Positions 1 through 4,901 of a stretch of 64,000 bases of DNA are shown here, in pieces. Positions within the stretch are counted from its first letter, which is position 1. The number at the start of each line of letters is the position of its first letter. The DNA lies in contig NZ_WKLH01000001.1 in assembly GCF_010882175.1 (NCBI RefSeq), positions 1,758,021 through 1,822,020 on the forward strand. The letters are read 5' to 3'. The notes below the pieces were generated by a model. That model was not told the origin of the DNA. It saw nothing but the letters and a program-made list of their open reading frames with translations, and searched no databases. Both the position numbers and the translations under genes were made by a program. The stretch is from Mangrovibacterium lignilyticum (lineage in GTDB: Bacteria; Bacteroidota; Bacteroidia; Bacteroidales; Prolixibacteraceae).

Positions 1-640
1 TAGCACCTTTCTGCGGACCGTAAACGGCTGAAGCGCCGAGCGGTCCTGTCAGCGGATTATTCACATCGCAGGCAACAAGAATCTCCGTTTTTGCCAACAA
101 AGGATTCACATCACTGGAATCGATTTGTGTAATCAAATGTAACGAACCACCTCCCCAGGAAACCTTATCACCGTTTTTATCCGGGAAACGAAAGCCCAAG
201 GCACGGGCCATTCCCATCCCTCCATCGTTAGTCGCACTTCCGCCAATGCCAATAATAATTTTGGAACACCCTTTTTTCATCGCATCAGCCATTAGCTGAC
301 CGGTGCCATAAGTCGTTGTCAGCAACGGATTTCGCTCCTCTCTTCTCAGCAACTCAATCCCCGACGCAGCAGCCATTTCAATAACAGCTGTTCCATCCGG
401 TAAAATGCCGTAAAAAGCCAGCACCGGCCTCCGTAGCGGATCGAAAACCTGAAGATCGACTCGTTCGCCACCCAAAGCTGAAAGCATGGTTTGCACAAAG
501 CCTTCACCACCATCAGCAACCGGAATGGAGTTGATTTCAGCATCGGGAAGAACACGATGTATTCCTTCAGCAAGGTGGCGCGACACGCTGGCCGCATCCA
601 AACAATCTTTAAATGAATCAGGGGCGATTAATACTTTCAT
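1..640 (-). CDS. Glycerate kinase (type 1 family), 3' part cut by the window edge
   Basis: The gene runs off the left edge. The readable part starts MKVLIAPDSFKDCL and contains the family signatures VADGGEGF (about residues 43-50) and GIGGSATNDGGMGMARALG (about residues 111-129), which are typical of the GarK/GlxK glycerate kinases. The enzyme phosphorylates D-glycerate with ATP to 2- or 3-phosphoglycerate in the cytoplasm. It lies 11 bases behind the glycoside phosphorylase gene and is clearly in the same operon. That neighbour is expected to release free D-glycerate, which this kinase would return to glycolysis. Family assignment is firm; the position phosphorylated is not visible. Confidence 0.9.
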   Translation of the reverse strand, partial: MKVLIAPDSFKDCLDAASVSRHLAEGIHRVLPDAEINSIPVADGGEGFVQTMLSALGGERVDLQVFDPLRRPVLAFYGILPDGTAVIEMAAASGIELLRREERNPLLTTTYGTGQLMADAMKKGCSKIIIGIGGSATNDGGMGMARALGFRFPDKNGDKVSWGGGSLHLITQIDSSDVNPLLAKTEILVACDVNNPLTGPLGASAVYGPQKGA

Positions 641-651
641 AGTTCTTCAGT

Positions 652-2358
652 TTAAAGCATAAAACGGGTACGTAACCACAAACTTTGGTAAGGTTTCAAT
701 TCAATCGAATCGGGATTTAAAAGCTCCCAGGTCAGCACGTCGCGGCAAAATTCCATCAGTCCGGCAGGCAACATCACAGATTGCTTCTGATTGGTCAGGT
801 TGTACAGGCAAACCACCGAGTCTTCCATATGAACTGTTTTCCGCAAAACACAGAAGAATTCATTGCCCAAATCGATAACCAATTGCTGGGTCTCGGGAGA
901 GAAAGCGATCATGTTGCGACGAATGCCGGTTCGTTTATTCAGTTCAGCCAGAATTGCTGAATGCTGCGGATAATCCTCCAACAGGCTGTTGATCTCTTCC
1001 AGGGTAAATTTGCGCCGGTTGATGGAGCGATTAACACCGGTTTCTTTCAATCCTTCATAATCGTTCGGAAGACCAAATAAATTTAAAAAGTAAAAAGCCG
1101 GCACTCCCTGCAACGAAAGCATGATGGTTTGGGAGAGCAAGAAACGCTTCACCTGGTATTCATCAATACCTTCTTTTGTCCCCTTCAGCGCATCAAAGTA
1201 AGTAACATTTATTTCGTACGGCACATGCTTATCACCCAGTTGGCGGGTGGTGACACGAGCTCCAAATTCTTTCAGCTTCTCAATCATCGGCAATTTTTCG
1301 TCATCGGGCATAATGCCTTCAAGCGGACGAACACCAATCCCATCGTGCGATGAGGTGAAATTAAGATAAGTTGTTCCTCTTCGGGGGTCGCTTAACTCTT
1401 TTGCCCAATGGGTCAAATACGATCCATTCCCGGTATGCAGTGCGTGCAAAATAAGTGGCGGAAGGGCAAATTGATAAATGAGGTGAGCCTCGTCACCCAA
1501 ACCGAAATAAGTAATATTCTCGCGATGTGGAACGTTCGTTTCCGTTAGCAGCAAAGCTCCCGGATAACAATAATCCATCACATCGCGAAACAGACTGACG
1601 ATCTCATGAGTTTCATGCTCGTGCATGCAGGATGTTCCCGATGCTTTCCACAAAAAAGCAATCGCATCGAGCCGTACCACCCGAATCCCTTTTTCCATAT
1701 AGAAAAGAAACACATTCAGCATTTCTTTCAGCAATTCCGGATTGGCATAATCCAGATCGACCTGATCGGAGCTAAAGGTTGTCCACACCTCCTTAGGACC
1801 TTGAGCTGTTTCTACCGGAGTCAGCAAAGGGCTGCTTCGCGGGCGGATCACATTCGAAACATCGAAATCAACCGGTGGAACAAAGAAATAATCTTTGCCC
1901 GGAGCCTTTCCTTCTTTGAACTGCCTAAACCACACACCAATACTACTGGCGTGATTGGCTACCAAATCGGCCATCAGAATAAAATCTTCCTCGAGCTTTT
2001 CAATATCATCCCATCCGCCCAGCTCCGGATTCACAGCATAAAAGTCCTCGACGGAAAAACCGTCGTCGCTACTGTACGGAAAGAAAGGCAGAATATGAAT
2101 GGTTGAGATCATCCCTTTCAACCGGTCTAACGCAAAACGGTGCAAGGTTTTCAAAGGAGCTTCGCCCTTCTGCTTTATGACATCGCCGTAGGTAATCAGA
2201 AAAACCTGTTTTTCATCCCAGCCCGGACGGTTACGCGGTGTTTTATTCTTACGTTCATCGATAAACTCACACAGCTCGTCTATCCAATCTTCCGTGAGTG
2301 TTTTCTTGTAAATCCGGTTCAACCGGTTCCGTATTTTCGATTTGGTGCGAATGTCCAT
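652..2358 (-). CDS. GH13_18 phosphorylase, probably glucosylglycerate phosphorylase
   Basis: A 568-residue GH13 enzyme of the sucrose-phosphorylase subfamily. Visible landmarks are DLVANHASS (131-139), RLDAIAF with the presumed nucleophile D231, LTETNVPHREN with acid/base E273, and SSHDGIGVRPLEG with the third Asp at D339. Subfamily members use phosphate to split sucrose, sucrose 6-phosphate, glucosylglycerol or glucosylglycerate. The operon decides here: GpgS and a phosphatase upstream would make glucosylglycerate, and glycerate kinase follows 11 bases downstream. The inferred reaction is glucosylglycerate + Pi to glucose 1-phosphate + D-glycerate. Subfamily is firm; the substrate is inferred from context. 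Confidence 0.85.
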   Translation of the reverse strand: MDIRTKSKIRNRLNRIYKKTLTEDWIDELCEFIDERKNKTPRNRPGWDEKQVFLITYGDVIKQKGEAPLKTLHRFALDRLKGMISTIHILPFFPYSSDDGFSVEDFYAVNPELGGWDDIEKLEEDFILMADLVANHASSIGVWFRQFKEGKAPGKDYFFVPPVDFDVSNVIRPRSSPLLTPVETAQGPKEVWTTFSSDQVDLDYANPELLKEMLNVFLFYMEKGIRVVRLDAIAFLWKASGTSCMHEHETHEIVSLFRDVMDYCYPGALLLTETNVPHRENITYFGLGDEAHLIYQFALPPLILHALHTGNGSYLTHWAKELSDPRRGTTYLNFTSSHDGIGVRPLEGIMPDDEKLPMIEKLKEFGARVTTRQLGDKHVPYEINVTYFDALKGTKEGIDEYQVKRFLLSQTIMLSLQGVPAFYFLNLFGLPNDYEGLKETGVNRSINRRKFTLEEINSLLEDYPQHSAILAELNKRTGIRRNMIAFSPETQQLVIDLGNEFFCVLRKTVHMEDSVVCLYNLTNQKQSVMLPAGLMEFCRDVLTWELLNPDSIELKPYQSLWLRTRFML

Positions 2359-2484
2359 TGTTTCAAATTCAAAGTTTCAAATTACGAATAGAGGGCCCAA
2401 GTAGTTCAAAAGACTACCGAATAAATGAGTTCAAGCTACGAGCTTCAAAACTTACTTCTAATGTTTTTGGCTAATATCTAAGTT

Positions 2485-3711
2485 CTAAACTTCACTATTA
2501 TCCAACTCCACAATCTCATTAAACTGCTCCAACACATCCGGGATAGCATCAATCACCCGTTTCCACGAAGGGATGAACGGGATCAAATCAGGGTTATCCA
2601 GAAAATCGATCCCTGCCCGGTAAATATTTTGTGCAAACATATCAACCGATTGTTCTTCTTTGTGACGATCCATCCCCAGTCCGTTTATCGATGCATCAGC
2701 TGCGTATTGCTCCACCATATCGAGTGCGGTACGCAAATAGACCGCTTTAACGGTTCTGATAACTCCTTTGCTGAAGACTGATCCCTGGGTTGCCAGCTTG
2801 GCAAAAATACTTCGCGCAATGTCGAAACTCATTTTCGACAAACCACGGGTCGGGTCATTATTCGACTCTTCCTGGTGTTTATGGTCGTAAGCATCGGCAA
2901 TTTCAACCTGGCAAATCCGGTTGATCGCATTATTCCGTTGTACTTCCGAAAGGATGCCAACCTCCAGTCCCCAGTCGGACGGAATACGAACCGTTTTCAT
3001 AATATCAGCACGCATCGAAAACTCGCCAGCCAAAATGTATCGGAAATGATCCAGAAAATCGAGGTAATCATTTGCCGGGAAGACCTTTTTCAAGGAGCGG
3101 ATTAACGGAGTTACCATCAGACGGGTTACCCGTCCATTCAGTTTCACCCCATCCGAACGGTAGTAAAACCCCTTACAAAATTTATAGTTGAAAGTCGGAT
3201 CGGCTACCGGATACAGCAGGCGGGACAGCAACTCGCGATTGTAGGTAATCACATCAGCATCGTGCAGGGCAATGGCTTCCGAACGCCCCGAGGCAATCAT
3301 ATAACCAAAACAAAGCCAAACATTCCGTCCTTTTCCGGGATCGCCGATGTAGATCATTTTTTCTTCAAACATCTTGCGCAGTTTCATCATCCGGGGACCA
3401 TCGTTCCAAAGCACCCGGCAACGACATTTCTCCGTACTCAAGTCAGCAAAATACGCTTTGGCATGCTGGTATTGCTTCTTGTTCGCCTGATCCAGACCAA
3501 TCGTGATTTCAGTTAAATAAGGCACTTCCTTTAAGGTGTCGACAATATGTTGCAGTGCCGGTTTTTCGAGTTCTGTATAAAGTGCAGGGATAATCAACCC
3601 CATGTTCCGTTTCTTTGCAAACTTCACCAACTTCTTTTCCAAATATTCAAGACTTGAATAATTCAGATTGTGTAAGGTGGTAATACTTCCGTTTTGATGA
3701 AAATCGCCCAT
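2485..3711 (-). CDS. gpgS: Glucosyl-3-phosphoglycerate synthase (GT81)
   Basis: A 408-residue retaining glycosyltransferase of the GT81 type. Visible motifs are GDPGKGRN (123-130, nucleotide/phosphate contacts), the metal-binding DAD in ALHDADV (151-153), WGLEVG (247-252) and AYDHKHQ (274-280), which supplies a His ligand in this family. GpgS transfers glucose from an NDP-glucose donor to 3-phosphoglycerate, giving glucosyl-3-phosphoglycerate, the first step of glucosylglycerate synthesis. The HAD phosphatase gene lies 24 bases upstream in the same direction and the phosphorylase gene 126 bases downstream. No second glycosyltransferase domain is present. The family is well supported by motifs and context. 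Confidence 0.9.
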   Translation of the reverse strand: MGDFHQNGSITTLHNLNYSSLEYLEKKLVKFAKKRNMGLIIPALYTELEKPALQHIVDTLKEVPYLTEITIGLDQANKKQYQHAKAYFADLSTEKCRCRVLWNDGPRMMKLRKMFEEKMIYIGDPGKGRNVWLCFGYMIASGRSEAIALHDADVITYNRELLSRLLYPVADPTFNYKFCKGFYYRSDGVKLNGRVTRLMVTPLIRSLKKVFPANDYLDFLDHFRYILAGEFSMRADIMKTVRIPSDWGLEVGILSEVQRNNAINRICQVEIADAYDHKHQEESNNDPTRGLSKMSFDIARSIFAKLATQGSVFSKGVIRTVKAVYLRTALDMVEQYAADASINGLGMDRHKEEQSVDMFAQNIYRAGIDFLDNPDLIPFIPSWKRVIDAIPDVLEQFNEIVELDNSEV

Positions 3712-3735
3712 ATCGGTTTATTCTAAGGTTTAAGT

Positions 3736-4638
3736 TTATACTATCTCAAGCAGCTGACCAAGCTCTGTAATGATATAGTCAGGTTTGATTTTTGAGGCTT
3801 GAGGATGGTCTTTCCTCAAGCGGTAAGCACGCATATCGCCGGCATAAAAACAAGTTTTGAATCCCACTTGCTGAGCCGCGTAAATATCTTTCAGCATATC
3901 ATTCCCCACATAAAGCACGTCCTGTGGTTGAAGGCCTCTTTTTGCCAATGGCTCAACCAAAGCTTCATAAACTGCTGTGTCAGGTTTCCCCTTCAACATT
4001 TTATAGCTAAAGATTGAGAGATCGCGTTCGAAACCATCTAAAAATTCTTCGCCGTGAATTTTCCCGCCAAAGAAATAATTCATCATCACCGGCGTGTAAA
4101 ACTGGGCGTTGGAAACAATTCCCAAGGGATAGCCTTTTTGCTTCAGGCCATCAATGGTTTCGGTCATATTTGGCATTGGCCACACCTGGTTACTGCTTAG
4201 TTCGAAAATGAAGGTAAACAGCCGTAAATCGGCATGATCCATTCCTTTGATCAGACCACGGTCTTCGGCCCGGCCTAAGGTTTTCCGCCAAATTTCAACA
4301 ATATTAAGTTCCGGGAAAGGTATTCCGGAAGCCTTCGCTTCATCCTTCCCGTTGGTTACTTCTTCTTCAAAGAGTGAATGAATGGTCATCAGTCCGGCAT
4401 CGGGAACCCGAATTTCGAAGCCGGCAGCATCCAGGGAGCGCTTAAACATAGAAGCATCATAACCGGCTTGCATAATATCGCCGGAAGCTGAAATAATCAG
4501 GGTTCCGTAGATATCGAAAATAACGGCTTTGATACTTTCATCCCGAGCATAAGACGGAGTGGCGCCGGTGGGTATTAACTCCATCGGCTGAATTTGCTTC
4601 AAAAAAGGCTCAAGATGATTGAGATACGATAGATTCAT
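3736..4638 (-). CDS. HAD-superfamily hydrolase, probable glucosyl-3-phosphoglycerate phosphatase
   Basis: A HAD hydrolase of about 300 residues. Motif I is FDIYGTL (the nucleophile is the Asp of DIYGT, about residue 42), motif II is the Ser of IVSNAQ, a Lys lies in KGKPDTAVYEAL, and the acidic motif is VGNDMLKDI. The frame stays open to 4731, but the N-terminal extra 31 residues look non-coding, so the start MNLSYLNHL at 4638 is preferred. It is the first gene of the glucosylglycerate operon, 24 bases before gpgS, and is the natural candidate to dephosphorylate the GpgS product. It is not obviously one of the characterised GpgP sequences, so the substrate is inference. Confidence 0.75.
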   Translation of the reverse strand: MNLSYLNHLEPFLKQIQPMELIPTGATPSYARDESIKAVIFDIYGTLIISASGDIMQAGYDASMFKRSLDAAGFEIRVPDAGLMTIHSLFEEEVTNGKDEAKASGIPFPELNIVEIWRKTLGRAEDRGLIKGMDHADLRLFTFIFELSSNQVWPMPNMTETIDGLKQKGYPLGIVSNAQFYTPVMMNYFFGGKIHGEEFLDGFERDLSIFSYKMLKGKPDTAVYEALVEPLAKRGLQPQDVLYVGNDMLKDIYAAQQVGFKTCFYAGDMRAYRLRKDHPQASKIKPDYIITELGQLLEIV

Positions 4639-4901
4639 GACTGTGGTAACAATTTGAGATTCAAAAGTTGAATCGATTTGAAAATAGAAAACGCAAAGCG
4701 CTTTTAGAGTTGTCCGTCTTGAAGATATCAAAATCTATCGAATATTGGCAGGGCAAAACACAGGAAGTCCGCTTAATTGGTGAAAAATTAACAGAGTTAC
4801 CCCTATTAATTAGGGGCTGAAGTGGTAAAAACAGGGTTTCCAAAGCGAGTTGGTAAATCGTTTTATAAGAACGCAATAACCACTCCCGACTGACCGGACA
4901 G

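Follow-up and report, generated by a model that had tools for sequence, protein, structure and literature searches.

A predicted operon for the synthesis and phosphorolytic recycling of glucosylglycerate in Mangrovibacterium lignilyticum

Four genes at one end of a 64,000-nucleotide stretch of the Mangrovibacterium lignilyticum genome (GCF_010882175.1, contig NZ_WKLH01000001.1, positions 1,758,021 to 1,822,020; hereafter the window, meaning the whole stretch analysed) are predicted to form an operon for both synthesis and recycling of 2-O-alpha-glucosylglycerate (GG), a compatible solute, a reading to which we assign a probability of about 0.8. They encode, in order of transcription from the minus strand, a HAD-IA type hydrolase, a glucosyl-3-phosphoglycerate synthase-like glycosyltransferase (GpgS), a GH13_18 phosphorylase with the specificity marks of 2-O-alpha-glucosylglycerate phosphorylase (GGaP), and a glycerate kinase. 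This four-gene order is more than chance, being kept in 7/7 loci of the short form described below, which come from the genome itself, three congeners and three genomes of a sister genus.

Gene arrangement and proposed pathway

The original prediction, made from the window alone, described four same-strand genes separated by 24, 126 and 11 bases. The coordinates of the open reading frames bear this out, with the correction that the glycerate kinase gene runs past the window edge and encodes 377 amino acids in full (L002:7527-8660, in our longer extract of the same locus). A search for the same order in related genomes had been proposed as a check, and it returned the seven loci just mentioned. 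The features are as follows.

3736..4638, minus strand: HAD-IA type hydrolase, 300 amino acids (PF00702/PF13419), putative glucosyl-3-phosphoglycerate phosphatase (GpgP)
2485..3711, minus strand: GpgS, glucosyl-3-phosphoglycerate synthase-like glycosyltransferase, 408 amino acids (NF040724.1, 352 bits, E 3e-105)
652..2358, minus strand: GH13_18 phosphorylase, 568 amino acids, predicted GGaP from motifs and tree
1..640, minus strand: glycerate kinase (TIGR00045), first 213 of 377 codons, the remainder beyond the window edge
4639..4901, minus strand: intergenic region upstream of the HAD gene, with conserved blocks in a DNA alignment of four congeneric loci, likely promoter/operator

In the proposed pathway, GpgS would couple nucleoside diphosphate (NDP)-glucose to 3-phosphoglycerate and the HAD-IA protein would strip the phosphate to give GG, which would be stored as an osmolyte. 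Once the cell has no further use for GG, phosphorolysis by the GH13_18 enzyme would split it into alpha-glucose 1-phosphate and D-glycerate, so that the glucose would be kept as glucose 1-phosphate, and glycerate kinase would feed the glycerate back to glycolysis as a phosphoglycerate. The make-and-recover logic had already been suggested in the original prediction, and it agrees with the assignments of GpgS, GGaP and the kinase from their sequences. The analysis shows the protein families, the gene order and its conservation, and the specificity marks and tree position of the phosphorylase; we infer every reaction in this organism, as well as co-transcription, regulation and, above all, the role of the HAD-IA protein as phosphatase. 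Operating at the same time, the two halves would amount to a futile cycle, so control of the enzymes' activity or the use of separate promoters must be expected. The upstream blocks conserved in the four congeneric loci are candidate regulatory sites, and the gene set is a plausible candidate for a dynamic osmolyte cycle. The in vivo role of GGaP is stated as an open question in excerpts of PMC7178133; the presence of the phosphorylase in a unit with GpgS makes this role directly testable.

The pairing of both directions in one cluster had been regarded as unusual, and this was wrong: the arrangement is of a known kind, in a Bacteroidota form, with a HAD protein of another class at the phosphatase position. 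According to excerpts of published work, GGaP genes are often accompanied by genes for glycerate kinase, GpgS or GpgP (PMC7178133), GpgS, GGaP and GpgP of Synechococcus PCC 7002 are likewise paired under neighbouring locus numbers (A2021, A2022 and A2023, respectively), and all three occur together in 198/250 Marinobacter isolates (PMC10873239). Moreover, we scanned public genomes with a GpgS alignment and took the best 80 of at least 571 loci by similarity to the window's GpgS, a selection whose shares are not population frequencies. In 77/80 of them gpgS is preceded, on its own strand and at a distance of no more than about 540 bases, by a HAD-IIB gene (GpgP/MpgP-type), and the commonest arrangement, found in 57/80, has GGaP downstream of gpgS on the same strand with a gap of at most 400 bases. 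In the other 23, GGaP is convergent and close (3), opposite and further away (7) or absent from the stretch (11), or the contig is too short (2).

Among known systems, the marine gammaproteobacterial gpgP-gpgS-GGaP clusters (Pseudoalteromonas plasmid L011; Marinobacter L026 and L028-L031) resemble the window in having a HAD gene upstream of gpgS and GGaP downstream on the same strand, but their HAD protein is of the IIB type where the window has HAD-IA. With the window's glycerate kinase as query (E 1e-4, matches covering 40% or more of its length), no kinase was found in the non-Bacteroidota loci of the scan. Plasmid records show the HAD-IIB/gpgS/GGaP trio in Pseudoalteromonas. In Leisingera and Qingshengfaniella the trio is convergent, and the Psychrobacter record has HAD-IIB and gpgS only. 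The Pseudoalteromonas HAD-IIB phosphatase (L011:5263-7008, 581 amino acids) has an added N-terminal region with weak kinase-like matches (uridine and pantothenate kinase models), and is possibly a fused kinase-phosphatase.

As to the limits of the predicted operon, which belongs to a genome of 5.6 Mb in 16 contigs, the HAD reading frame is also open further upstream, to a TTG at 4731. A one-base difference from the congeneric locus L017, just before the ATG at 4638, alters the reading of this upstream part, and for this reason the ATG is preferred as the start. An EamA transporter gene on the same strand ends 263 bases before the HAD start. It is present at the loci of three congeners and absent from the sister-genus locus L020, and was therefore left out of the predicted operon. 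Beyond the glycerate kinase, an ABC permease and ATPase could be read from the sequence.

The synthase and the HAD-IA protein

The GpgS family assignment of the original prediction holds, being supported by the NF040724 score, by full-length alignment and by shared invariant motifs. In a full-length alignment with GpgS-like proteins encoded in HAD-IIB gpgS clusters, where identity to the window's protein ranges over 41-93%, D151/D153 (DxD) and G126-K127-G128/N130 (GKGxN) are invariant in 9/9 sequences; the window's protein is 57% identical to the Pseudoalteromonas GpgS. Solved structures gave a single weak match, uninformative on specificity.

The HAD-IA protein is probably the glucosyl-3-phosphoglycerate phosphatase, an assignment that we base on its linkage to GpgS and on its position upstream of gpgS. 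Thirty Bacteroidota genomes or contigs with GpgS were collected; 29 were used for gene order (G510, of genus g11, was left out) and, together with 9 loci selected by HAD, they make up 38 gene-order loci. The HAD-IA gene is present at 29/29 of the loci selected by GpgS. Among 393 genomes sampled from the order, the HAD protein was found in 11 (E 1e-30) and GpgS in 10 (E 1e-10), all 10 being among the 11; both searches were taken as covering the same 393 genomes, given their equal numbers and agreeing names in the listed part. The eleventh HAD genome, G808, is fragmentary (660 contigs) and has the gene on a 3-kb contig. GpgS itself is patchy: counting the genome under study, it was found in 7/61 near relatives, 27/140 family genomes and 10/393 order genomes, and, at E 1e-10, in 1/395 genomes sampled evenly across the phylum, the one being this genome. 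A HAD-IIB GpgP query found no match in this genome or in three other GpgS-bearing Bacteroidota genomes, and recovered 4/4 positive-control genomes.

By its Pfam families (Hydrolase/HAD_2) the protein is of the HAD-IA type, and its motifs, DxY-GT (D42, Y44), S176-N177, K218 and N246-D247...D251, are identical in 38/38 Bacteroidota sequences. No HAD-IIB/MPGP family (TIGR01486, NF001216, NF001218) was found among the 21 families listed for it; the HAD-IIB proteins of two other gpgS clusters do match MPGP families. The original prediction of a phosphatase gene thus stands as regards a HAD gene in this place, and fails as regards the known HAD-IIB type of GpgP, the protein being a HAD-IA with an altered motif I whose phosphatase step would follow from linkage.

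Several points weigh against a single operon that makes and recycles GG. Matches to promoter-like and terminator-like consensus in the region are not above those in shuffles (7 versus a mean of 9.3, and 6 versus 7.3), and the 126-base gap inside the predicted unit could house a second, internal promoter. The window's GpgS falls below the equivalog cut-offs of both NF040724.1 (352 bits against 700) and NF010496 (68 against 262). However, the GpgS-like proteins of the Pseudoalteromonas and Marinobacter clusters also fail on NF040724 (367 and 386), so this cut-off seems to be lineage-bound. The predicted GGaP may also act on sucrose, since a sucrose-active GGaP (XpGP) has been published (excerpts of PMC11009771). 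As for the HAD-IA protein, HAD phosphatases are described as following a rule in which motif I is DxDx(T/V) and the second Asp is the general acid-base (excerpts of PMC8069645), and its own motif I reads DxYGT in 38/38 sequences. In its motif IV, GNDxxxD, a profile alignment puts N246 at the first motif IV Asp of two solved phosphatase-type HADs. Finally, a fold search with the modelled structure ranked L-2-haloacid dehalogenases first, with a pyrophosphatase, epoxysuccinate hydrolases and phosphatases behind them; dehalogenases use DxY. The model was built from three sequences (mean predicted local distance difference test score 77.1, two of the five models below 55), and query-normalised TM-scores of 0.42-0.51 over the 50 rows listed single out no function.

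These features suggest the alternative that the HAD-IA protein is not a GpgP but a non-phosphatase hydrolase or a regulator, and that a housekeeping phosphatase dephosphorylates glucosyl-3-phosphoglycerate. Besides the invariant DxY and the dehalogenase-like folds, it is favoured by the solved HADs found by profile, since, among the four, the two for which motif I was printed (2hoq and 4ygq) have DxD. We nevertheless consider it unlikely. The motif II Ser (S176), the motif III Lys (K218) and the acidic motif IV residues (D247 and D251, in a DxxxD pattern) are kept in 38/38 sequences, and the HAD-IA gene accompanies every GpgS carrier of the order sample and every GpgS-selected locus, including those of the short form, which have no other glycosyltransferase alongside. 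It also occupies the slot upstream of GpgS where the HAD-IIB GpgP sits in the genome scan. Should the HAD-IA protein prove to be the phosphatase, a class of GpgP escapes searches based on HAD-IIB, and GG producers in Bacteroidota would be under-counted.

The phosphorylase and the glycerate kinase

The GH13_18 protein has the catalytic residues D231, E273 and D339, and the Asp/Glu/Asp set is present in all 106 rows of the alignment. This alignment was built from 100 candidate loci (match >1500 bases), of which 93 were kept by length (480-640 amino acids) and 7 dropped, plus 13 named sequences; it contains 102 different sequences, the window being in it twice (as such and as L002). Excerpts of Franceus and Desmet 2020 (PMC7178133) give as GGaP marks a (T/S)ETN motif at beta-strand 5 and a loop A Glu replacing Gln, and report that substituting Asn275 and Glu383 of the Meiothermus silvanus enzyme severely lowers its activity. 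The window's protein has N275 (TETN) and E382 (loop A, HVPYE). Of the aligned rows, the 99 that fall with GGaP carry the TETN Asn and the loop A Glu without exception; the 7 that fall with the sucrose/glucosylglycerol phosphorylases, namely three plasmid-encoded gtfA proteins and four PDB chains, all have His and Gln there.

The tree splits the same two sides with 100% support (Shimodaira-Hasegawa-like approximate likelihood ratio test, SH-aLRT), and Escherichia coli YcjM, the record of which is annotated as GGaP, falls on the window's side. The tree, made by a quick method, includes one published GGaP (YcjM) and no sucrose 6F-phosphate phosphorylase, and the split is a long branch. YcjM is listed among characterised GGaP in excerpts of PMC8950772. 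With the known GGaP (EC 2.4.1.352; M. silvanus, S. thermophila and E. coli YcjM), the window's enzyme shares the GH13_18 family, TETN and loop A Glu, as well as the side of the tree with YcjM, to which it is about 40% identical. The surroundings differ: next after E. coli ycjM come genes for an ABC transporter and a kojibiose phosphorylase, and the 20 kb viewed contain no annotated gpgS. Sequences from Bacteroidota are not gathered in a single clade of the tree (open forks), and hence it does not establish a single origin or transfer of the whole cassette.

The activity predicted in the original note, that of a glucosylglycerate phosphorylase, is thus backed by both marks and by the tree, in which the protein groups with YcjM and apart from the sucrose and glucosylglycerol phosphorylases. 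That it might be a sucrose phosphorylase, a sucrose 6F-phosphate phosphorylase or a glucosylglycerol phosphorylase is very unlikely. Its best solved-structure matches do bear sucrose or glucosylglycerol phosphorylase names (one is named only as an Aamy-domain protein), and none of the 50 PDB matches listed is named a glucosylglycerate phosphorylase. However, the protein lacks the loop A Gln and the PEIH/PEVH of the four such chains aligned, and its gene neighbours are GpgS and glycerate kinase. It also scores 193.9 bits on the sucrose phosphorylase family TIGR03852, below the cut-off of 334.4, as does YcjM (221), while two annotated gtfA pass (882 and 434).

Over residues 2-372 the whole glycerate kinase reaches 478 bits on TIGR00045 (cut-off 168), in support of the family first proposed. 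Both the 2- and the 3-kinase equivalogs are below cut-off, so that the phosphoglycerate formed could be either of the two. A homology search of the genome with this protein, and with no other glycerate kinase, returned one match, the protein itself.

Long and short cassettes in Bacteroidota

Most of the 38 Bacteroidota loci (31) have a longer cassette, in which the HAD-IA gene adjoins a GT4-like glycosyltransferase gene (GT4b), with a second one (GT4a) in 30 of these; the label GT4-like comes from Pfam Glycos_transf_1 matches just below the gathering score. GpgS is found in 29/31 of the long cassettes and GGaP likewise in 29/31: one contig ends before both genes and another before GGaP, and one cassette is without GpgS. 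The latter, in genome G775 (L161), reads GT4a-HAD-GT4b-GGaP, and a GpgS 40% identical to the window's lies on another contig with one stop in the match. A glycerate kinase lies within 8/31 long-form stretches, against 7/7 of the short form. The short form, HAD-GpgS-GGaP-kinase, is confined to 7 loci, four from the window's genus and three from one sister genus, and makes up one clade in both the GpgS and the HAD trees. As this clade sits beside long-form loci in both trees (with support of 88/80 and an open fork for GpgS, and of 100/97 for the HAD), an origin of the short form by loss of GT4 genes is favoured, though not proven.

The best NCBIfam match of GT4b and GT4a is mannosylglucosylglycerate synthase, far below its cut-off (65 and 34 bits, respectively, against 640), and GT4b had no match among solved structures. 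This weak likeness to the mannosylglucosylglycerate (MGG) pathway of Petrotoga and Rhodopirellula is a hint, no more, that relatives with the long cassette might make a larger derivative of glucosylglycerate. One published MGG route starts from GpgS; the MGG phosphatase is named MggB. The long cassette offers a concrete gene set for seeking a further sugar-glycerate osmolyte. That the end product of the window's operon is itself larger than GG is very unlikely: GT4b stands beside GpgS in 29/36 Bacteroidota loci with clustered GpgS, but a genome-wide search, made for GT4b and not for GT4a, gave no hit in the 7 genomes with the short form, that of the window included, and recovered 4/4 positive controls.

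More tentatively, and at somewhat less than even odds, the Bacteroidota GpgS clusters may represent an undescribed pathway. Its HAD-IA protein, with Tyr in place of the acid-base Asp, would be a (glycosyl)glucosyl-3-phosphoglycerate phosphatase, adding one more independent solution for this step to the HAD-IIB enzymes and the mycobacterial phosphatase, which is a histidine phosphatase. The product of the full cassette would be a larger solute built on glucosylglycerate, and the window's genus would keep a reduced form ending at glucosylglycerate. In the open-licence PMC literature searched, the listed titles and beginnings of abstracts mention neither a glucosylglycerate cassette in Bacteroidota nor a HAD-IA GpgP.

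Some further observations were made on these loci. The long cassette GT4a-HAD(IA)-GT4b-GpgS-GGaP(-glycerate kinase) can be seen at L021, L022, L025, L126-L138, L140-L143 and L155-L160, and at most long loci GT4a and HAD overlap by tens of bases in different frames. An open reading frame of 719-722 amino acids at L134 was considered as a GT4a-HAD fusion and rejected, because the tail of GT4a differs from that of L021 and the genes overlap elsewhere; an indel has probably joined the two frames. In the GpgS tree, a Desulfobacteraceae GpgS (L024:1274-2485), with no HAD or GGaP in the stretch examined, falls among the Bacteroidota rows. At four long-cassette loci, genes of about 170 amino acids, labelled YfiR by look only, lie on the opposite strand just after GGaP (L023:5621-6771, L025:11967-12479, L155:13936-14442 and L161:13024-14103).

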